A stretch of DNA of 64,000 nucleotides from Mucilaginibacter mali (lineage in GTDB: Bacteria > Bacteroidota > Bacteroidia > Sphingobacteriales > Sphingobacteriaceae): the NCBI RefSeq assembly GCF_013283875.1, contig NZ_CP054139.1, positions 3,782,001 to 3,846,000 on the forward strand, in the 5' to 3' direction. The notes beneath the pieces are model-generated. The model was not told the origin of the DNA. It did not search any database and saw only the letters and a program-made list of their open reading frames with translations. This document shows positions 17,926 to 31,579 of this stretch, in pieces. Each line of letters opens with the position of its first letter. Positions within the stretch are counted from its first letter, which is position 1. Both the position numbers and the translations under genes were made by a program.

Positions 17926-19377
17926 ATGCTCATTCAGCAACAGCAGATCCAGTTCAGTGCATACTCAGGGTTATATGACCTGATCGTTCCGAAAGATAAT
18001 CTTCTGCGGAAGATCAATGACCTGATAGATTTTACGTTTATCTACGAGGAATTGATCAGCAAATATTGCACAACCAATGGGCGGACAGCCGAAAGCCCTG
18101 TACGGATGTTCAAATATCTGCTGTTGAAAACGATCTATACGGTTTCAGATGTAGATGTGGTGGAACGTTCGCAGTATGACATGTCCTTCAAATATTTTCT
18201 GGAGATGTCTCCAGAGGAAGGGGTTATCGATCCGAGCTCATTGACCAAGTTCAGAAAGCTTCGGCTGAAGGATAACGATCTGTTAAACCTGCTCATCAAT
18301 AAAACGGTAACCATCGCCATTGAAAAGGGGATCATCCGGTCAAAGTCCATTACAGTTGATGCTACACATTCCCTGTCAAGATCAAATCCGTATTCAGCCT
18401 TAGAAGTATTAAGGGAGCGCTCGAAACGGCTTCGCAAAGCGGTGTATGCCATAGATGAAGATATGAAGGCAGGGATGCCGGAAAAGAACACCACGGATGA
18501 ACTGGAAAAAGAACTTGCCTATTGCAGTGCATTGGAAAAGTATATTGAAGCCGACCCGCCGTTAAGCCAGATACCTGCGGTAAAAGAAAAGCTGAACCTG
18601 TTGAAGGAGACGGTAGCAGACACGCAGGAGCACTATACGTTATCCAAAGACAAGGATGCTAAAACCGGCCATAAATCGGCTGATAGCTCCTTCTTTGGCT
18701 ATAAGACCCATCTGGCGATGACCGAAGAACGCATCATTACCGCAGCGGTGGTCACCTCGGGTGAAAAAGGCGATGGCCCGGAACTCCCTAAGCTTTTGGA
18801 GATCAGTCAGCAGAATGGCATTGACGTAAAAACGATCATCGGGGATTCTGCTTATTCAGGGAAAGAGAACCTTGAAATGACAAATGAACAAGATATCAAA
18901 CTGGTGGCTAAACTCAACCCGTCGATCACCCAGGGCTTCAGAAAAGATGAAAATAAGTTTGATTACAATAAAGATGCTGATCGGTTCGTCTGCCCGGCCG
19001 GGCATCTGGCTATCCGGAAGGCGCGCGGGGGTAAAAAGGATATCGGAGAGAATCAGGTTGATACTTATTACTTTGATGTTGAAAAGTGTAAGGTATGTCC
19101 ATTGAGAGATGGTTGCTATAAGCCTGGGGCCAAAACCAAAACCTATTCCGTTAGCATTAAATCAGGTCTGCACCAACAGCAAATGGCATTTCAGGAAACT
19201 GACGAGTATAAACAAAGCAGCAAACACAGGTATAAGATCGAAGCCAAGAACAGCGAGTTGAAAAATGCTCATGGTTATGACCGGGCAATAGCCTACGGAA
19301 TCGAAAATATGCAGATGCAGGGCGCCTTGGCTATCTTCACCGTCAATCTGAAAAGGATCATCAAATTGATGAGCTAA
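17926..19377 (+). CDS. IS1182-family transposase
   Basis: 483 residues, full length for the family. The N-terminal DUF772-type domain (YDLIVPKDNLLRKINDLIDF...RMFKYLLLKTIY) is followed by the DDE domain. Acidic positions are visible in SITVDATHS, IIGDSAYSGKENLE and KIEAKNSELKNAHGYDRA, and a Cys-rich stretch (CPAGH...CKVCPLRDGCY) lies between. It cuts and joins the ends of the element. The frame is intact, so it may be active. Codon and base use look less GC-rich than the neighbouring genes, as expected for a mobile gene. Confidence 0.93.
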   Translation: MLIQQQQIQFSAYSGLYDLIVPKDNLLRKINDLIDFTFIYEELISKYCTTNGRTAESPVRMFKYLLLKTIYTVSDVDVVERSQYDMSFKYFLEMSPEEGVIDPSSLTKFRKLRLKDNDLLNLLINKTVTIAIEKGIIRSKSITVDATHSLSRSNPYSALEVLRERSKRLRKAVYAIDEDMKAGMPEKNTTDELEKELAYCSALEKYIEADPPLSQIPAVKEKLNLLKETVADTQEHYTLSKDKDAKTGHKSADSSFFGYKTHLAMTEERIITAAVVTSGEKGDGPELPKLLEISQQNGIDVKTIIGDSAYSGKENLEMTNEQDIKLVAKLNPSITQGFRKDENKFDYNKDADRFVCPAGHLAIRKARGGKKDIGENQVDTYYFDVEKCKVCPLRDGCYKPGAKTKTYSVSIKSGLHQQQMAFQETDEYKQSSKHRYKIEAKNSELKNAHGYDRAIAYGIENMQMQGALAIFTVNLKRIIKLMS

Positions 19378-22903: not shown

Positions 22904-22913
22904 GCTTTGTTTT

Positions 22914-23033
22914 AGATTTGAGATGCGAGATATGAAAACCCGGATTCAAGATATGAGATTAAAGATGTGAGATAAACGCACACCCCTACCTTCTTGTATC
23001 TTGAATCTAAATTCCTGAATCTCTCACCTCCAT
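22914..23033. repeat. Self-complementary intergenic element, GAGATTTGAGAT-type
   Basis: GATTCAAGATA (22943-22953) and TATCTTGAATC (22997-23007) are perfect inverted copies inside longer imperfect arms made of GAGATATGAG-like words. It lies between the sensor-kinase stop and the response-regulator start, in one operon. A half-copy (CTCAAATCTCATATC) lies near 63090-63115. Confidence 0.7.
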
Positions 23034-23034
23034 T

Positions 23035-24678
23035 TCAATTATCATAAGGAAGCGTAACTATAAATTCCGATCCCTCGTTTACCTTGCTTTTAACAGCAAT
23101 TTGTCCATCCATAAAGTTAACCAGTTCTTTGCAGAAAGCCAAACCAAGGCCCACACTGCCGTTTTGGTTATATTTATTTTCTATACGGTAAAACTTTTTA
23201 AATACGTTAGCAATCTCACTTTTAGGGATGCCAATGCCTTTATCAGCAAATGAAAATACAATATTTCGTTTCTCCAACAAAATGCTTATCAAAACTTCCT
23301 TTTTATCCGGATGCGAATATTTGTAGGCGTTCTCTATCAAATTCTGAAAGATACTGCCCAGCAGCACCGGGTCGGTAGAAAAGGTTTTCACGCCCTTACC
23401 AATTTTATAACTCAGTTTCAAATCGGGATATTTCAGGCGGAAGGTATCTACATATTTTATAACAAATGCTTCTACATCTGTCTCTTCCGATTTTATCTTG
23501 ATCGACCGGTTCTCTATCTGGGTAAACGATAGCAGTTTGTTCATCAGTTCGTTCAGCTTATCGGCTTCCTCGTCCAGTATTTTACCGTAGTGCTTGCGTT
23601 GTCGTTCGGTTAGTTCGGCCTCGCTTCGCAGGTTCGATCCGGCAATTTTTATTACGCTTACCGGTGTTTTAAACTCGTGGGTAAAGTTATTAATGAAATC
23701 GTACTGCAACTTAAACAGTTTAATATTGATGCCCAGGTTACGATAGATCAGCCAGCCGATCACCAGTACAAATATGTAGATGAGTACCACAATGCCAGCG
23801 GTAGGCAAAAACCTCCGCCTGATCTCGGAAATGAGGTAATTACTATCCGATTTGAAATACAGCTTATAGTTAACAAAGGCGCCGGGGAACGCAGCTTCGG
23901 TAAACAACTTATCGGTACCCGTGTCAACCGGGTCATAAACCACAGGTTGTATCGATATATCGCGATACAACTCTTTATGCGTGTTCTTTATTTCCAGTTG
24001 GTAAGGATCGAGAAAGAACGTCATCATGTTTTGCCTTGAAAAGGCCGATGGCTGCCCGCTTAGTTGCAACTCGCGATAGGTTTTTATCTCCGTCGGCCGG
24101 GGTATGTTCATGTAGCTGATCTTGTCGGGCTGTACATTATAAAAAGTTTTAAACTTTTCGTCCTCGGTGGCATTGCGGGTAGTATCAGCCTGCGAGATAT
24201 AGTTACTCAGCTTTTCCGCCATTAACTTAAAATCTTCTTCTTCGGCATGGCCCGATTTCCGCATCCCGGTTAGTACCCCATCATTTTGCGTATACTGATA
24301 TACGGCGCGGGGGGCAATATCCAATTTGCCTTTGGTATGTTTTGCGGTGCGGTTGCCAATGGCTATATCATAAAAAACAATGCGCTGCACAAAAGGATAT
24401 TCATCAAACACCGAATCGGCATACCGGGCGGCCGAAAGTGAATCGAGATAGCCGTAATACGAAGTGATCTCGGGTATCTTGTTTTGAAAAAGGTAAAAGT
24501 AGGGTTTGGTGGTTTGATCCCAGATATCGTTCTTTTTTGAGTAAAACTCGTTTTGGATGGATTTGGTGGTGAAGTTATAAGTAATTACCAGCGCTATCAC
24601 CAGCGTTACCGATATCATGACCAGGAAAGCGCTGATCAAAAAAAGGTTCTTCCGGAAAACGTTTTGAGTAACCTGCAT
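23035..24678 (-). CDS. Membrane sensor histidine kinase (RprX-like)
   Basis: 547 residues. TM1 is about 12-34 and TM2 about 294-316, enclosing a periplasmic sensor domain of about 255 residues with no family I recognise. The HisKA box FINNFTHEFKTPVSVI has His334. The ATPase domain has an N box with NLIENAYKYS, a G1 box DKGIGIPKS and a G2 box GLGLAFCKELV. It phosphorylates the downstream response regulator. It starts 10 bp after the S9-like lipoprotein gene, so signal detection by the two may be linked. Confidence 0.92.
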   Translation of the reverse strand: MQVTQNVFRKNLFLISAFLVMISVTLVIALVITYNFTTKSIQNEFYSKKNDIWDQTTKPYFYLFQNKIPEITSYYGYLDSLSAARYADSVFDEYPFVQRIVFYDIAIGNRTAKHTKGKLDIAPRAVYQYTQNDGVLTGMRKSGHAEEEDFKLMAEKLSNYISQADTTRNATEDEKFKTFYNVQPDKISYMNIPRPTEIKTYRELQLSGQPSAFSRQNMMTFFLDPYQLEIKNTHKELYRDISIQPVVYDPVDTGTDKLFTEAAFPGAFVNYKLYFKSDSNYLISEIRRRFLPTAGIVVLIYIFVLVIGWLIYRNLGINIKLFKLQYDFINNFTHEFKTPVSVIKIAGSNLRSEAELTERQRKHYGKILDEEADKLNELMNKLLSFTQIENRSIKIKSEETDVEAFVIKYVDTFRLKYPDLKLSYKIGKGVKTFSTDPVLLGSIFQNLIENAYKYSHPDKKEVLISILLEKRNIVFSFADKGIGIPKSEIANVFKKFYRIENKYNQNGSVGLGLAFCKELVNFMDGQIAVKSKVNEGSEFIVTLPYDN

Positions 24679-24688
24679 ACAAGCAAAC

Positions 24689-26590
24689 CTACGGTTTAAC
24701 CCGCATATTATTATCCAGGAACTTCTCTATATCGGCATACACCTGCATCCTGCTTTCTTCGTTAAAAAAGGAACGCTCATTATCCTTATAAACAAAAGTT
24801 ACAGGCACTTTACGATTTTTCAACTCGCGTACAAACAACTTCAACTCGCTGATATTGGTACGCGGATCCCGTCCGCCCTGGAATATTAATAGTGGCAATT
24901 TAATTTTATCAGGATGAAACACCGGCGATATAGCCCTAAACATATCGGCATCGGTTTCGGGGTTACCAACCATTTCATATCGCATTTTCAACTGCGATTT
25001 TAAAAATGGCGGTACATCTTTTATATAACTAATAAAGTTGATAAGCCCTGATTGCACAATGGCGCAGTTATATAACTCGGGATGATTGGCTATACCATAT
25101 AATGCCGAGAAACCACCAAAACCGCTACCCATAAGGGCTATCTTTTTAGGATTGGCTATTTTTTGACTGATGAGCCATTTTACACCATCGGTAATATCAT
25201 CCTGCATTTTGCCACCTACCTGCTTAAAGCCGGCACTGTGAAATGCCTTACCATAACCGGTAGACCCGCGGTAATTCACCTGGAACACCGCATAGCCGCG
25301 GTTTGCCAAAAACTGCACCTCGCTGCTATATCCCCAACTATCACGACGCCATGGGCCGCCATGCGGCATTACCACTACCGGCAAATTAGTTTTGGTTTTA
25401 GTTTGCGGCAAGGTTAAATACCCGTTTATTACCAGGCCATCGCTTGCCTTAAAAGAAACGGGCTGCATGGCGCACAATTCATCAGGTGTAAGACCGGGGT
25501 TGGTTTCGCCTATTTTTGTCAGCTTTTTCCCATCGGGCTGATACAGGTAATACGAGCCTGGATCGCGATCGGTATAGGTATTAATAATGTATTTCTTCTC
25601 GGCACTGTCCCTGTCTACTATCCTTATTTTATTGCCTTTCAGTTGCACGCCCAGGTCGTGGTAGATACCCTCTATCCCTTTATCAAAAAAATGGCTCTGC
25701 TTTTTAGCATCTTCCCACGATACTGATTCCAATTTATGCGAGTATTTTGAAAACCCTACGTCCGACAGGTCGGCCGCGTCGCTGGCATAGATCACCTTTT
25801 CTTCCTTACCCGTCTGCGCGTTTATTTCAACTAAAGCGCTTTTATCGCGGTTCACGTTAGATACGGCATAGAACAGGTCTTTGTGCGTAGTGAACATGAT
25901 CGGTTCAACCGAGTTTTTAAAGTTGTTTTTGATGATGGGCTTAAACGGGGCTTCATCTGACGGGCGATAAAGAATCGTTTCATCTACCCCGTCAGATACC
26001 TTAGCCAGGTGGATCTTCCCATCCGCATCAGGAAACCATTCGCTCACATTGCCGGGATTAACTACGTATGCCCTTAATTCTGAGGTGCGGATGTTGAGGC
26101 GATAGATATCAAAATTGGCCGAATCGCGCTTGTTCATGGCAATGGTGATCACATCCGGCTGCTGCTTGTTTTTGGTCATGATCAGCTGCATGGTAGCCTT
26201 ATCCTGCGAAAGCAGTGTGCGTACCCGCCGGGTAGCCACGTCAAGCGCGCAGATCCTGAACTGACGGAACGAGATCATATCCTGCGAGAACACGATCTGG
26301 TTATTATACGTCCACGAGTAATCGCGGCGAACGGCATAATCGGTAAACGATGTTACCCGTTGCTCCTGTCCCGTAGCCAGGTCCTGTACAAACAGGTTCT
26401 GCTTTTTTTGGTACGGTTTCAGGTACGATATGTATTTGCCGTCAGGCGATATTTTGAATGTACTTTTTTCAGGGGTTTTAAAAAAGTCGCGCACGGGTAT
26501 CTCCCTCACCTGCTGATCTCTACAGCCCTGTAAGGTAAACACCAGTAAAACAGCAACAGCGATATTTTTTAAATGATATAGTTTATCCAC
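24689..26590 (-). CDS. S9 peptidase-like lipoprotein lacking catalytic Ser and His (predicted pseudoenzyme)
   Basis: 633 residues from a GTG start. Lipobox LQGC with Cys23 predicts membrane anchoring outside the cytoplasm. Residues about 35-350 resemble the beta-propeller of prolyl-oligopeptidase proteins (FKISPDGKYISYLKP). About 385-630 is the alpha/beta-hydrolase domain (VVMPHGGPWRRDSWGYSSEV, VNYRGSTGYGK, GGRDPRT). The nucleophile elbow, normally G-x-S-x-G-G, reads G488-S-G490-F-G-G493, so the serine position is Gly490. Asp575 is kept, but the DEGH motif reads DNER with Arg606 for His. Hydrolysis by the usual mechanism is therefore unlikely. It is the first gene of an operon with a sensor kinase. 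Confidence 0.88.
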   Translation of the reverse strand: MDKLYHLKNIAVAVLLVFTLQGCRDQQVREIPVRDFFKTPEKSTFKISPDGKYISYLKPYQKKQNLFVQDLATGQEQRVTSFTDYAVRRDYSWTYNNQIVFSQDMISFRQFRICALDVATRRVRTLLSQDKATMQLIMTKNKQQPDVITIAMNKRDSANFDIYRLNIRTSELRAYVVNPGNVSEWFPDADGKIHLAKVSDGVDETILYRPSDEAPFKPIIKNNFKNSVEPIMFTTHKDLFYAVSNVNRDKSALVEINAQTGKEEKVIYASDAADLSDVGFSKYSHKLESVSWEDAKKQSHFFDKGIEGIYHDLGVQLKGNKIRIVDRDSAEKKYIINTYTDRDPGSYYLYQPDGKKLTKIGETNPGLTPDELCAMQPVSFKASDGLVINGYLTLPQTKTKTNLPVVVMPHGGPWRRDSWGYSSEVQFLANRGYAVFQVNYRGSTGYGKAFHSAGFKQVGGKMQDDITDGVKWLISQKIANPKKIALMGSGFGGFSALYGIANHPELYNCAIVQSGLINFISYIKDVPPFLKSQLKMRYEMVGNPETDADMFRAISPVFHPDKIKLPLLIFQGGRDPRTNISELKLFVRELKNRKVPVTFVYKDNERSFFNEESRMQVYADIEKFLDNNMRVKP

Positions 26591-26705: not shown

Positions 26706-27536
26706 ATGCCTCGAAAAATTGATATAAATATCCATGAACATTTAAACCCGTGGATAAAGAAAAGTTTAGATCTGTTTAATAATAATAACTATTTAGATCA
26801 AATACTGGAAATATATCCTTTTCAAATTGCTGTACCAACGCGGTTGAACAAAGAATTGAGCAGGGAGATCATGATGGCTCATGCGGCTCGGGACACCCCC
26901 AAATTATTCAGCTTGTTAAAAAACCTTACCAAATTCCCCTACGATGACCCGATATGGTATTTATTAAAATCCGTTAAAGGGTGTTTTGATAATAACCCGC
27001 GGCAAGTGCAGCGTATAGCAGATTCTTTATATTCGATGACGGCCGAAGAAGTGGTGGTCAGGCTGGAATCAGCGCCCAAGATCAACACCCAAATGGGACC
27101 GATGTTTACCAAGTGGCTTAAAAACAGATATAAATCTTTGCATGCGGATGAGTTCATGAACTCGGATACCGGAATAGTGAATCTGCATGCCAGCGAAGAA
27201 GAAGCTAAAAGGTTTGTTAACGATGTACTAAAGCAGGATCTGCCTAAAAGGCCCGATCTTTTTGTAAAAGTAAACAGTACCTACATTATTGGCGAAGCCA
27301 AATGGATAGGGCAACCAGGCGGCAACCAGGAAAAACAGGTTGGCGAGGTAGTACAATTTTGCTCAAAACAACGCGGTTCTGTAATTCGTATCGGTATTGT
27401 TGATGGTTTCCCCTGGGCTATACATAATTTAAGCGGCAGGTTAATTAATAATAAAGAGGCGGTAAATATCCAGGAATCGCCCTATAATATTATCAGTGCG
27501 CTGCTGTTAGATGAATACCTTGGTGGGTTTCTGTAA
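26706..27536 (+). CDS. Probable type II restriction endonuclease (PD-(D/E)XK)
   Basis: 276 residues, no membrane segment. The C-terminal half contains the nuclease signature PDLFVKVNSTYIIGEAKW: Pro183-Asp184 then Glu197-Ala198-Lys199, a PD-x12-EAK motif. It is followed by an EKQVGEVVQF helix. The N-terminal half is helical and presumably recognises DNA. It is convergent with, and overlaps by 44 bp, a DNA methyltransferase gene, which strongly supports a restriction role. The target sequence cannot be read from the protein. I do not recognise a named family. Confidence 0.75.
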   Translation: MPRKIDINIHEHLNPWIKKSLDLFNNNNYLDQILEIYPFQIAVPTRLNKELSREIMMAHAARDTPKLFSLLKNLTKFPYDDPIWYLLKSVKGCFDNNPRQVQRIADSLYSMTAEEVVVRLESAPKINTQMGPMFTKWLKNRYKSLHADEFMNSDTGIVNLHASEEEAKRFVNDVLKQDLPKRPDLFVKVNSTYIIGEAKWIGQPGGNQEKQVGEVVQFCSKQRGSVIRIGIVDGFPWAIHNLSGRLINNKEAVNIQESPYNIISALLLDEYLGGFL

Positions 27537-28821
27537 CATGCTCAAACAGGTTGTATTTTATATCTTCCTTGTTAAAAAGCTTTTTAATGGTATCAATAGC
27601 ATGTTGCGAATTATCTATACCTACCCAATGCCTGTTTAATTTAGCGGCGGCGATAAGTGTAGTCCCCGAACCTGCAAAGCAATCTAAAACAATAGATCCG
27701 GGATTGGAAGAGTTGAGGATAATACGGTTTAACAAATCTATATTTTTTTGCGTAGGATAGTCAGAGTACGATAATCCTTTATCCTTATATTCCCAAACAT
27801 CCTGGGTTTTAACGCCGGCGTGGTCTTTCGCGTAAACAATTTTTCGCGGGTTCCCTTTTTCCGACCATTCTATCAATCCCAAACTTTCAAGCCGTGTCAG
27901 TTCTTCCCGGCTATACCTCCAGTGCCTGCCTTTAGGGGGCATTAAGCCGTTCCATTCCTTCCCGGTATCTCCCGAAAGGGTTTCGCCGGGGGCATGTAAG
28001 GGGTGGGTAGTGTATCGCCCATGCTGAGGGTGTTTTTTAGGGAACAGTTCCTCTATTTTCCTTTCAGACAGGTCTTCTTTTATATTATTCCAGATATTGT
28101 TATCCCGCTTCTTCGCGTAAAAAAGGATCATGTCCGAATAATTCCCGTAGGCATTTCTTGCAAAGTTTTTTGGGTTGCACTTAATGCGGGTAATATCATT
28201 GATAAAATTGTCGTAGCCAAAAATTTCGTCCATTACAATTTTAATGTAATGCCCTATCTTTTTATCTATATGCAGGTAAATGCTGCCTTTATCCGAAAGG
28301 ATATCCCTCAATAAAATTAACCTTTGCCTGATAAACTCTATAAACTCATTATGCGTCAGTTTATCCGAGTAAGCGTGTTGATTGTCGATATCAGCAAAAT
28401 CATTACCTGTGGCAAATGGCGGGTCGATATAGATCAGGTCGACCTTGCCTTGCAGTTCTTTACTTAATATTTTTAATACTTCTAAATTATCGCCAAAAAA
28501 TAAGCTGTTATAAGGGCCGCTGTGTTGCTGATCGGTATGAGTTAACGTCCCACTGGCGCTTTCGCTAAGCAGCGCGTGTTCCGAAACCTTACCATCGTAA
28601 TCTAAAATACAATTGCGGCTTTTTTTAAGATAAAAGCGTACCGGCCTTTCGAGTGTTGAATTTGATAAGATAAAGTTGATGAAATCATCCTCTAATATTC
28701 TATAACTTTTGTTTACCTTAATTGCATTCAGCTCGTTATTTATAATATATTTAGAAACTGTTTGGCGGGTTACTTGTAACTTTTTAGCAACTTCATCAAT
28801 AGTTAGAAAAGTATTTCCCAT
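27493..28821 (-). CDS. DNA methyltransferase (type II, beta order) with N-terminal HTH domain
   Basis: 442 residues. Residues 1-55 form an excisionase/MerR-like helix-turn-helix (FLTIDEVAKKLQVTRQTVSKYIINNELNAIKVNKSYRI). The methyltransferase follows with the catalytic motif IV YIDPPF at 131-136 and the AdoMet motif I FAGSGTT at 382-388, the order of beta-class N4-cytosine or N6-adenine enzymes. A TRD-like region lies between. It should protect host DNA from the convergent nuclease. The extra HTH may let it repress its own promoter, where two direct repeats lie (28840-28871). Confidence 0.88.
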   Translation of the reverse strand: MGNTFLTIDEVAKKLQVTRQTVSKYIINNELNAIKVNKSYRILEDDFINFILSNSTLERPVRFYLKKSRNCILDYDGKVSEHALLSESASGTLTHTDQQHSGPYNSLFFGDNLEVLKILSKELQGKVDLIYIDPPFATGNDFADIDNQHAYSDKLTHNEFIEFIRQRLILLRDILSDKGSIYLHIDKKIGHYIKIVMDEIFGYDNFINDITRIKCNPKNFARNAYGNYSDMILFYAKKRDNNIWNNIKEDLSERKIEELFPKKHPQHGRYTTHPLHAPGETLSGDTGKEWNGLMPPKGRHWRYSREELTRLESLGLIEWSEKGNPRKIVYAKDHAGVKTQDVWEYKDKGLSYSDYPTQKNIDLLNRIILNSSNPGSIVLDCFAGSGTTLIAAAKLNRHWVGIDNSQHAIDTIKKLFNKEDIKYNLFEHVTETHQGIHLTAAH

Positions 28822-28882: not shown

Positions 28883-30706
28883 ATGTTTTTTTATCTAAAA
28901 AAATATATCACATTGATCCTCCTGCTTTTAGGATTTAGCACGGTGTTTGCCCAAAACACCGACCTGCAACTGGCGCAGCAATTTAGCGCCAATGGCGAGG
29001 AGCAAAAGGCCCTGGAAATATATCAGCGCCTGTATAAGCAGGATAACGATGCCTACTACACCGGCTATCTGAATAGCCTGCTTGCACTGAAAAAAACAGA
29101 CGAGGCCGAGAGCATCACCAAAAAGATGATGAAAAAGCACCCGGCCGATTTTCAGTATGCCATAGCGCTGGGCAAGGTATACCGCGAGCAGGGGCACCCC
29201 GAAAAAGCTGAAAAAGTTTACGATGACCTGCTGAAGAACCTGCCTACCGATTATAATAGTATTGTGCAATTAGCCACCCAGTTTTACCAGTCAGAAAATT
29301 CGGATGTGGCCGTTCGCATATTTCAGCAGGGGCGCAAGACTTTACATAACGATCAGGCATTTACGCTTGAACTCATCAGCCTGTACCGTTTTAAACATCA
29401 GAAAGCGCCGCTGATCAACGAATACCTCAACTTTTTACCGTTGAATCCCGGCTATATCAATTCGGCCGAAAACACCATGGCCGGCGTATTTGAGAACAAT
29501 GCCGATTACGATATGCTAAAAACCGAACTGCTGAAACGTATACAGGCCGCCCCTCAACAAGTGATATTTGCCGATCTGCTTACCTGGCAATACCTGCAAA
29601 TTAAAGATTACGAGCAGGCCCTTAACCAGGCCATAGCACTAAGCCGCAGGCGTAATGACGATGGCAGCAGCATTTTTGAACTTTGCCAAACCCTGGTAAG
29701 TAACGAAGCTTATGACGAGGCCATCCGCGGGTACGAATACATTATCGCCAAAAGTGCAAAAGACCAGCAGATCTACGTAGCCGCCAAGGTTGAACTGATC
29801 AACACCAAAAATCTTAAAGTAACATCGGGCAAGTACACCCAGGCCGATCTGGAGGGCTTGGAAAAAGATTACTTTGAACTGCTCACCGAGTTTGGCCGGA
29901 ACAATGGCACCGCCTTCGCCATGCAAAAACTGGCCCGCTTACAGGCATTTAAAATGCACAAACTCCCCGAAGCGCAAAAGCTGCTGGAGGAGATGATCAA
30001 GCTGCCCAACCTCAATACATCTATGCTGGCCGCCTGCAAGCTTGATTTGGGCGATGTGTACGTAATGAGCAACCAGCCCTGGGAAGCTACCCTAATTTAC
30101 AGCCAGGTTGAAAAAAGTAACGCCGATGTAGCCACAGTACAGGATGCTAAACTGCGCAACGCCAAACTGGCTTATTACACCGGCGATTTTGCATGGGCCA
30201 AAGGACAGTTAGATGTGTTGAAAGCTGCTACCACCCAATTAATTGCTAACGATGCCTTGAATTTATCGCTGTTAATTAAGGATAATATTGAAGAGGATAG
30301 CACCGGCGCCGCCTTGAAAATTTATGCCCGTGCCGATTTGTGGATATTTAAAGAACAGCCGGATAAAGCCCTGATGGCGCTTGATAGCATCGATAAGAAA
30401 TTCCCCAATAACGAACTGGCCGATGATATCCTGATGGCGAAGGCACGCATCCATATCCAGCAAAACGATTATTCGGGTGCCGCCCCTTTACTGCAAAAAA
30501 TAGTTGACGAGCACAAAACCGAGCTTTGGGCAGATGACGCGGTTTTTATGCTGGGCGATATTTACGAGAACCACCTGAATGATAAAGAAAAAGCGAAAAC
30601 CTTTTATCAAAAGATCATCACCGATTACCCCGGCAGCCTGTTTATTAACGATGCACGCAAACGTTTCAGGATTTTAAGAGGCGATAAAATGAACGGCCAA
30701 CTATAA
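28883..30706 (+). CDS. Exported tetratricopeptide-repeat protein
   Basis: 607 residues with a signal peptide (KKYITLILLLLGFSTVFA|Q). The rest is alpha-solenoid: repeated helix pairs such as QQFSANGEEQKALEIYQRLYKQ, ALGKVYREQGHPEKAEKVYDDLLK and, near the end, DDAVFMLGDIYENHLNDKEKAKTFYQKIITDYPGS. The spacing is that of TPR units. Such periplasmic solenoids scaffold envelope complexes. The last part resembles the BamD/Tol-type repeats, but the exact role is unknown. The next gene has its own candidate promoter 7 bp after this stop. Confidence 0.85.
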   Translation: MFFYLKKYITLILLLLGFSTVFAQNTDLQLAQQFSANGEEQKALEIYQRLYKQDNDAYYTGYLNSLLALKKTDEAESITKKMMKKHPADFQYAIALGKVYREQGHPEKAEKVYDDLLKNLPTDYNSIVQLATQFYQSENSDVAVRIFQQGRKTLHNDQAFTLELISLYRFKHQKAPLINEYLNFLPLNPGYINSAENTMAGVFENNADYDMLKTELLKRIQAAPQQVIFADLLTWQYLQIKDYEQALNQAIALSRRRNDDGSSIFELCQTLVSNEAYDEAIRGYEYIIAKSAKDQQIYVAAKVELINTKNLKVTSGKYTQADLEGLEKDYFELLTEFGRNNGTAFAMQKLARLQAFKMHKLPEAQKLLEEMIKLPNLNTSMLAACKLDLGDVYVMSNQPWEATLIYSQVEKSNADVATVQDAKLRNAKLAYYTGDFAWAKGQLDVLKAATTQLIANDALNLSLLIKDNIEEDSTGAALKIYARADLWIFKEQPDKALMALDSIDKKFPNNELADDILMAKARIHIQQNDYSGAAPLLQKIVDEHKTELWADDAVFMLGDIYENHLNDKEKAKTFYQKIITDYPGSLFINDARKRFRILRGDKMNGQL

Positions 30707-30712
30707 AATCCG

Positions 30713-30720
30713 TATTTTTG
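30713..30720 (+). promoter_or_regulatory. Bacteroidota -7 element of the DUF4286 gene (TATTTTTG)
   Basis: Exact TAnnTTTG, five bases before the ATG at 30726. This is the same geometry as at mntR and implies a leaderless or nearly leaderless transcript. Confidence 0.5.
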
Positions 30721-30725
30721 CCCTG

Positions 30726-31034
30726 ATGATCGTATACAACGAAACCTACGTAATGGATGAAGCCATTAAAGACGAATGGCTTACCTGGATGCAAACAGAA
30801 CAGATACCGGCCATTATGAAAACCGGTTGGTTCAATTCCTATAAAATTCTTTCAGTGTTAGATTCGCCAAACGAGGGCGTAACTTATTGTGTGCAGTTTA
30901 TTACCGATAAAGAGGGTAACTATACATACTTTCGGAACAAGCACTCAAACTGGTTTCACCAACTACATAACCAAAAGTTCGAGAACAGGTTTGTGCTTTT
31001 TAATACCTTAATGCAATTGATTGACGAAAAATGA
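30726..31034 (+). CDS. DUF4286 family protein
   Basis: 102 residues, soluble. MIVYNETYVMDEAIKDEWLTWMQTEQIPAIMKTG and the later QFITDKEGNY match the DUF4286 family, a small ferredoxin-like alpha/beta fold found in Bacteroidota. Biochemical function is unknown. It overlaps the rfbC start by 4 bp (ATGA), so both are probably translated together. Confidence 0.88.
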   Translation: MIVYNETYVMDEAIKDEWLTWMQTEQIPAIMKTGWFNSYKILSVLDSPNEGVTYCVQFITDKEGNYTYFRNKHSNWFHQLHNQKFENRFVLFNTLMQLIDEK

Positions 31035-31579
31035 ATGTAAAAACCACCGCCATTGATGGCCTGTTAATAATCGAACCACGTATTTTCCCTGATGACCGCG
31101 GTTATTTTTATGAAAGCTATAACCAGCAAAAATACGTTGCCGCTGGAATTACGGATACCTTTGTACAAGACAATCAATCGTTCTCTCAAAAAGGGGCTTT
31201 ACGCGGCTTACACGGCCAGGCCGATCCATTTGCACAAGGTAAACTGGTGCGTGTTATTCAAGGCCGGGTACTGGATGTAGCGGTTGATATCCGCAAAAAC
31301 TCGCCAACCTACGGACAGTATGTTACTGTTGAATTGAGTGGAGATAACCATGTACAATTTTGGGTTCCGCCCGGCTTTTTACATGGCTTTGTAACGCTTG
31401 AGGATGATACCATTTTCACCTACAAAGTAACCAACGTTTACGATAAAGCTTCAGAAATAGGTGTGATATGGAACGATCCAACTTTAAACATCGATTGGGG
31501 TATCGACGCTGGCGATGCAATATTATCACCAAAAGACCTGGTACTGCCTTCGTTTAACGATTTTGTAAGTCCGTTTTAG
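31031..31579 (+). CDS. rfbC: dTDP-4-dehydrorhamnose 3,5-epimerase
   Basis: 182 residues with a cupin fold. IEPRIFPDDRGYFYESYN at the start, LRGLHGQ carrying the catalytic histidine, and FWVPPGFLHGFVTLEDDTIFTYKVTNVYD with the catalytic tyrosine are all typical of RmlC. It epimerises dTDP-4-keto-6-deoxyglucose at C3 and C5 on the way to dTDP-L-rhamnose for surface polysaccharide. The other rml genes are not in the window. Translationally coupled to the DUF4286 gene. Confidence 0.94.
   Translation: MNVKTTAIDGLLIIEPRIFPDDRGYFYESYNQQKYVAAGITDTFVQDNQSFSQKGALRGLHGQADPFAQGKLVRVIQGRVLDVAVDIRKNSPTYGQYVTVELSGDNHVQFWVPPGFLHGFVTLEDDTIFTYKVTNVYDKASEIGVIWNDPTLNIDWGIDAGDAILSPKDLVLPSFNDFVSPF

Follow-up and report, generated by a model that had tools for sequence, protein, structure and literature searches.

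Gene content of the locus

The window analysed here, a 64,000-nucleotide stretch of the single-contig, 6.04-Mb genome of Mucilaginibacter mali (contig NZ_CP054139.1, positions 3,782,001 to 3,846,000), carries three minus-strand genes running in the same direction, which encode a predicted lipoprotein of the S9 peptidase fold, a sensor histidine kinase and an OmpR-type response regulator (Table 1). A first-pass annotation of this DNA had described the lipoprotein as a prolyl-oligopeptidase-like protein without its catalytic Ser and His, whose gene ends 10 bp before the kinase gene. The open reading frame (ORF) coordinates bear out the spacing of 10 bp between the S9 stop codon and the kinase ATG; the third gene, the response regulator, was absent from that account. 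With it, the S9 gene is linked to a kinase and a regulator, the arrangement of an accessory-lipoprotein three-component system.

Table 1. Features of the three-gene locus, in window coordinates
Feature	Position	Strand	Basis or remark
S9-fold lipoprotein, 633 aa, beta-propeller plus alpha/beta-hydrolase, triad broken	24689-26590	-	complete ORF, GTG start; Pfam
Signal peptide and lipobox (predicted)	26522-26590	-	Cys23 of LQGC at 26522-26524
Codon 490, GGT, Gly at the place of the nucleophile Ser	25121-25123	-	sequence, alignment
Codon 575, Asp retained	24866-24868	-	sequence; Asp in 140/142 linked proteins
Codons 606-607, Arg (Gly column) and Ser (catalytic His column)	24770-24775	-	alignment
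Sensor histidine kinase, 547 aa, ATG start	23035-24678	-	ORF, Pfam; phospho-acceptor His334 at 23677-23679
Kinase periplasmic sensor domain, residues 37-288 (predicted)	23815-24570	-	no Pfam family
OmpR/PhoB-type response regulator, 228 aa	22217-22903	-	ORF, Pfam

Pfam, AlphaFold2, Foldseek and VIA-align agreed on the prolyl-oligopeptidase fold that had been assigned to the lipoprotein. Peptidase_S9 (PF00326) matched with an E-value of 2.9e-39, the AlphaFold2 model had a predicted local distance difference score (pLDDT) of 92.6 and a predicted template-modelling score (pTM) of 0.90, and the closest fold (Foldseek plus VIA-align) was the cold-adapted acylaminoacyl peptidase 5l8s (VIA-align Z 35.9, 3.5 Å over 579 residues, 21% identity), which was the best phmmer match as well. 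In contrast to 5l8s and other S9 peptidases, in which the catalytic Ser and His are present at the aligned places, the window protein has the nucleophile elbow G-S-G490-F-G-G, Asp575 within QGGRDPR, and Ser607, instead of a Ser-Asp-His triad with a GxSxGG elbow. The triad columns were set by alignment to intact relatives carrying E-G-H. The alignment thus reproduced the substitution of Gly490 for the nucleophile and the retention of Asp575 proposed at first pass, and it agreed that the catalytic His is gone; the reading of Arg606 as its replacement was one column off, since Arg606 occupies the Gly column and the His column holds Ser607. Judged by its sequence, the window protein is an S9 homologue and no peptidase. 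The genome encodes five weaker S9-like paralogues as well, and in each of them a GxSxGG-type motif persists, as judged by a crude pattern informative for the elbow and not for the His.

The Pfam matches of the kinase, HisKA and HATPase_c, lie within residues 327-546, and the chains returned by structure search with the whole kinase mostly match this core. His334 and seven other checked core residues are invariant in 85/85 aligned kinases, and the kinase therefore appears active. Residues 37-288 match no Pfam family at E ≤ 1, in keeping with the large unassigned periplasmic domain noted at first pass. This sensor domain appears restricted to the Sphingobacteriaceae. In 192 genomes from elsewhere in the class its profile gave one marginal partial match (E 0.006), against matches in 6/6 family genomes. 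At E ≤ 1e-50 the full kinase was found in 0/144 non-family genomes of another class draw, and an order-level kinase search drew the same family only. Of the 33 family loci in the named set, 32 have a regulator match on the same strand after the kinase; the remaining one breaks off within the kinase.

The kinase had also been called RprX-like. RprX/RprY of Bacteroides is likewise an OmpR-type two-component system of Bacteroidota, but the curated RprY cut-off is 370 bits and the window regulator reaches 129.6; it ranks fifth in its own genome, behind four other regulators. The best of these reaches 310.8 bits and no gene passes the cut-off; the label was dropped. The essentiality reported for rprX/rprY in B. 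fragilis (PMC4072883) bears on the rejected label only.

Catalytic residues in linked and unlinked relatives

The alignment held 194 distinct proteins (six duplicates merged), of which 143, with the window copy as query, were linked to the kinase and 51 were unlinked. Of the unlinked proteins, 47 were the best relatives in the named collection (39-45% identity) and four were family paralogues; unlinked means that no such kinase was found beside the gene, and in six of the 51 loci fewer than 700 nt follow the gene, so that a downstream kinase would be missed there. The 142 scorable linked proteins include the window protein and two cut proteins (L076, L140); a frameshifted linked protein (L141) was dropped from later counts. 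The Mucilaginibacter clade (71 proteins) combines 50 rows of the genus itself (code g1) with 21 named-collection loci grouped with them by similarity. Code g1 was tied to Mucilaginibacter by two proteins of named Mucilaginibacter records that match g1 loci without a difference over their last 560 residues, and the family code f1 takes in Solitalea, a member of Sphingobacteriaceae according to NCBI.

The Ser-Asp-His triad was intact in 25/142 linked proteins versus 51/51 unlinked ones. All 71 proteins of the Mucilaginibacter clade were broken, which rules out a peculiarity of one strain and, set against the 51 intact unlinked relatives, indicates that the loss exceeds chance. Because 25 linked proteins retain the triad, the pseudo-peptidase is not the universal state of the family, and the first-pass idea, which was to fall if intact orthologues turned up, cannot stand as a general description. 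Among the 142 linked proteins, position 490 was Gly in 96, Ser in 30, Arg in 14 and Asn in 2; position 575 was Asp in 140, and the His column held His in 30. The Ser codon was AGT or AGC in 25/25 intact linked proteins. From these codons a single step leads to Gly, Arg or Asn, so that convergence on Gly could arise without selection for it. Five linked proteins had lost Ser and kept His; five others had kept Ser and lost His, all of them from Mucilaginibacter, and the four of these present in the tree described below sit inside a broken clade. This distribution suggests that Ser was usually lost before His.

Other positions distinguished the linked proteins as well. The residue after the nucleophile (491) was Tyr or His in unlinked proteins but Phe in 71/71 proteins of the Mucilaginibacter clade and in 24/25 intact linked ones, from which it follows that the linked branch changed its elbow before catalysis was lost. 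A basic residue stood at 606 or 607 in 90/117 broken proteins, where it possibly pairs with Asp575, versus 1/25 intact ones. A Cys lay within 20 residues before Phe36 in 139/139 linked proteins with an N-terminus, versus 18/51 unlinked ones, and a loose lipobox pattern was matched by 132/142 linked proteins. The lipoprotein assignment is a prediction from motif, for the window protein the Cys23 of LQGC.

Repeated loss under purifying selection

A tree was built from 113 rows thinned from the 194, with three trait columns left out; it comprised the window, 30 of the 70 other Mucilaginibacter-clade rows, 12 of the 51 unlinked rows, and the remaining linked rows except L140 and L141. Intact and broken rows were intermixed, with 11 changes by parsimony. 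If loss is irreversible, 12 losses were required, or 11 or 10 after branches under 80 or 95 support were collapsed. A constraint placing all broken rows in a single clade was rejected by the approximately unbiased test (p-AU 2.8e-59; 45 rows, LG+G4), the group having been chosen with the tree already in view. A single loss event is thus ruled out. From the tree the ancestral linked protein was most likely intact, so linkage would have preceded loss.

The ratio of nonsynonymous to synonymous substitution rates (dN/dS) was estimated in 20 hand-picked close pairs, 17 broken and three intact; dS was saturated in four of the 17 broken pairs and above 2 in three more. It was 0.016-0.071 in 12 of the 13 broken pairs with finite dS and 0.149 in the other (dS 0.08, His kept), and 0.039-0.068 in the three intact pairs. 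The broken S9 genes are under strong purifying selection. That the window gene is a truncated pseudogene is ruled out by its complete ORF and by the constraint on its close relatives.

Linkage to the kinase

Within a draw of 301 Sphingobacteriaceae genomes (thresholds E ≤ 1e-80 for S9 and E ≤ 1e-60 for the kinase), the S9 gene was found in 288 and the kinase in 296, including 285 of the 286 genomes of good quality. All 288 S9-positive genomes also carried the kinase, eight had the kinase only and five had neither, a count that compares genome rows; neighbourhoods were read in 141 loci and the window. Every family orthologue fetched adjoins the kinase (142 loci plus the window, or 141 plus the window after the frameshifted L141 was dropped). 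Measured to kinase starts extrapolated along the alignment, the junction was -4 to 43 nt in 140/141 loci, the exception being 186 nt (L178). A lack of conserved linkage in related genomes, which the first-pass annotation had named as fatal to its idea, is excluded by these junctions and by the complete co-occurrence. Two of the eight kinase-only genomes (G153, G262) are contig-edge cases, and another (G123) has a shorter, diverged S9 gene that was read by eye as Gly-Asp-His.

Covariation with the sensor domain

Covariation was measured as the partial correlation of pairwise distances with the kinase-core distance removed. The S9 protein and the sensor domain gave 0.668 in 85 rows, with 0.68 in the Mucilaginibacter clade plus genus g3 (43 rows), 0.393 in the other broken rows (26) and 0.637 in the intact rows (16); in the whole set and in every subset 0/1000 permutations were as high, the permutations ignoring shared ancestry. 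A TPR-like gene divergent from the S9 gene served as control, for which upstream stretches were taken from 40 more genomes, five of them without the TPR gene; rows with a cut frame or without a paired kinase were left out, giving 59 rows in the larger control. The first control (25 rows) yielded 0.746 for S9-sensor, 0.232 for S9-TPR and 0.041 for sensor-TPR. The larger one yielded 0.678, 0.388 and 0.146, respectively, and its 22 rows from the Mucilaginibacter clade plus g3 yielded 0.668, 0.393 and 0.173. When half-samples of all rows were drawn, S9-sensor exceeded S9-TPR in 98.5% of 1000 draws.

Surrounding features

The spacer between kinase and regulator (22904-23034, 131 nt) contains repeated ATCTCA/ATCTTGAAT-like tracts and exceeds that of most related loci, L066 being an exception. 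Upstream of the S9 gene, the window holds at 28883-30706 and 30726-31579 a conserved divergent neighbourhood of a TPR-like gene, a small ORF and an rfbC-like gene, TPR-like and rfbC-like being the names we presume for genes at 28883-31579. In 24 long loci the same TPR-like gene was found upstream of S9 in 24/24, the small ORF in 23/24 and the rfbC-like gene in 19/24. Between the S9 gene and the TPR gene of the window, the interval 26706-28821 carries a gene for a Tsp45I-like restriction enzyme (PF06300, E 1e-38) and one for an N6/N4 DNA methylase with a helix-turn-helix domain; in L052 a related methylase (67% identity) occupies the same slot. The TPR gene was also seen by eye in genomes of genus g11, where no S9 gene was found. 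Farther away, a 483-aa ORF at 17926-19377 presumably resembles an insertion-sequence transposase. An Rfam scan of window positions 15-35 kb gave no match.

Discussion

We favour, with modest confidence, a three-component signalling system in which the S9 lipoprotein is an accessory co-receptor of the adjacent kinase and catalysis has been discarded repeatedly. The three genes would be co-transcribed. The lipoprotein would be held in the envelope by its N-terminal lipid, facing the periplasm, and would contact the family-specific periplasmic domain of the kinase and set its activity, whether by stimulation or by restraint; control would probably depend on occupancy of the propeller/hydrolase cavity by a ligand, a peptide or other. 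Ancestral members could have cleaved as well, and in Mucilaginibacter and many sister lineages cleavage would have been given up with the fold, anchor, gene junction and constraint retained. Neither a remnant nor an unrelated chaperone fits as well as a co-receptor, because the junction is conserved, the lipobox-position Cys is universal, constraint persists without catalysis, and the distribution is co-extensive with that of the sensor domain. The earlier interpretation, a membrane-anchored pseudo-peptidase that could bind peptides and signal to the kinase, gains from the conserved lipoprotein, kinase and regulator set and from the loss of catalysis; the covariation with the sensor domain is specific in only part of the data. 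More tentatively, an envelope-anchored S9 peptidase may have been recruited once as co-receptor of the family-specific kinase and may then have lost its catalysis in 10-12 independent events, with Gly as the usual outcome at the nucleophile, to become a ligand-binding signalling subunit.

Several observations weigh against this reading. The ratio of the S9 rate to the kinase-core rate had a median of 2.02 in 32 broken pairs versus 1.29 in six intact pairs (p 0.03 by permutations that ignore shared ancestry), and the somewhat faster S9 evolution in broken lineages indicates a degree of relaxation. Five reduced genomes of genus g11 (1.7-2.0 Mb; loci L224, L225, L226, L232 and L233) keep the kinase and regulator with no match to the S9 gene, little sequence lying upstream of the kinase in one of the g11 genomes (G033). 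In two single-contig genomes of genus g16 the S9 frame beside the kinase is split by frameshifts, and a complete 2.3-Mb genome (G067) has neither the S9 gene nor the kinase. The conserved block is wider than three genes, the TPR gene being present in 35/40 further genomes in addition to the long loci above, which makes part of the shared gene order ordinary synteny. Covariation is uneven: the 12 non-Mucilaginibacter rows of the first control gave 0.002 for S9-sensor, 0.483 for S9-TPR and 0.434 for sensor-TPR, and the 37 rows of the larger control outside the Mucilaginibacter clade and g3 gave 0.495, 0.538 and 0.386, which is not specific. The excess over the control is therefore carried by the Mucilaginibacter clade and by the contrast between groups, and as support for contact between the S9 protein and the sensor domain the covariation is moderate, not strong. 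The frameshifts of genus g16 lie at about 2900-2930 in L228 and about 3840-3930 in L229, one of them at a G-tract, and reflect either decay or sequencing error.

A variant compatible with the co-receptor, which we rank as possible but on the unlikely side, gives the intact forms a task of their own: they would cleave the ligand of the kinase, or the kinase itself, to terminate the signal, and catalytic loss would have turned an off-switch into a standing receptor. The 25 linked proteins that keep Ser-Asp-His beside the same kinase are in its favour, as is fly DPP10, which retains both peptidase activity and channel binding (PMC4873792). However, Phe already replaces Tyr491 in nearly all of these intact forms, so their peptidase activity may already be altered.

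Rather unlikely, in our estimate, is a function independent of the kinase, in which the S9 lipoprotein, though broken, would act as a peptide binder or as a chaperone or scaffold for envelope proteins, and the genes would travel together through control by the regulator or inheritance of the whole block. The TPR gene, conserved in 24/24 and 35/40 loci without a known link to the kinase, would fit such a role; so would the survival of the kinase without S9 in genus g11 and, outside Mucilaginibacter, an S9-TPR correlation of 0.538 versus 0.495 for S9-sensor. Against it, S9 covaries more with the sensor domain than with the TPR gene over the 59 rows and in the Mucilaginibacter clade plus g3, the same-strand junctions stay within -4 to 43 nt in 140/141 loci, and the two genes co-occur in 288/288 genomes.

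Decay of a former peptidase, kept by its operon position only through drift or polar effects, we hold to be improbable. Within the Mucilaginibacter clade position 490 does vary among Gly, Arg and Ser and many different residues occupy the His column, and the frameshifts in genus g16, the missing S9 gene in g11 and the somewhat raised rate in broken pairs point the same way. The low dN/dS in 12/13 broken pairs is hard to reconcile with it, however, as are the retention of the lipobox-position Cys and Asp575 and the restriction of internal stops to three of the S9 matches listed. A shade less credible still is an enzyme of non-classical mechanism, with another nucleophile residue or a different target bond: the retention of Asp575 in 140/142 linked proteins and the basic residue at 606/607 in 90/117 broken ones show that the site is not random, but the adjacent residue, Ser489, lacks conservation (Gly 38, Ser 10, Ala 9 and Arg 7 of the 71 Mucilaginibacter-clade proteins) and was rejected as an alternative nucleophile, no systematic search for others having been made.

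Both accessory proteins tuning histidine kinases and, in animals, S9 non-peptidases have precedents; the kinase-activating lipoprotein QseG is not known to have the S9 fold. In the QseG-QseE-QseF system an operon encodes kinase, regulator and lipoprotein, and QseG binds the periplasmic loop of QseE and activates it (PMC12691602, PMC6075780), a likeness at the level of description. The actinobacterial lipoprotein LpqB, likened by description in the same way, also interacts with its kinase, MtrB of the MtrAB system, but it reduces MtrB activity in M. smegmatis (PMC5845573). The proposed accessory role has its nearest parallel in mammalian DPP6 and DPP10, S9B non-peptidases that are membrane-anchored auxiliary subunits of Kv4: the propeller/hydrolase fold is shared, the nucleophile Ser is replaced, by Gly in the Kv4 modulator DPP10 (PMC4350108), and an active orthologue exists, since fly DPP10 is still a peptidase (PMC4873792). 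The window protein differs in being a bacterial lipoprotein encoded beside a sensor kinase rather than an ion-channel subunit, in having lost its His too, in the 10-12 losses of its lineage, and in that its binding to a partner is a proposal. The DPP proteins are S9B with an N-terminal transmembrane anchor; by similarity matches, the closest solved chains of the window protein are acylaminoacyl peptidases, and its lipobox Cys follows an N-terminal helix. The S9 lipoprotein may work like DPP6/DPP10 without belonging to them. A literature search turned up no study that joins a bacterial S9 pseudo-peptidase to a kinase, which is no proof of absence, since bioRxiv and the majority of subscription articles lay outside the search.

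In these bacteria, a protein annotated as an S9 peptidase is not necessarily active. The kinase present in 285 of the 286 good-quality family genomes gains a candidate co-receptor, and the g11 genomes offer a natural test of whether it needs the S9 gene. Intact and repeatedly inactivated versions at one locus in one family amount to a natural replicated experiment in the possible passage from enzyme to receptor. If the co-receptor reading is true, active and inactive versions in the same operon would make it feasible to ask what advantage the loss of catalysis brings a peptidase, and the Sphingobacteriaceae would hold a bacterial counterpart of the DPP6/DPP10 story.

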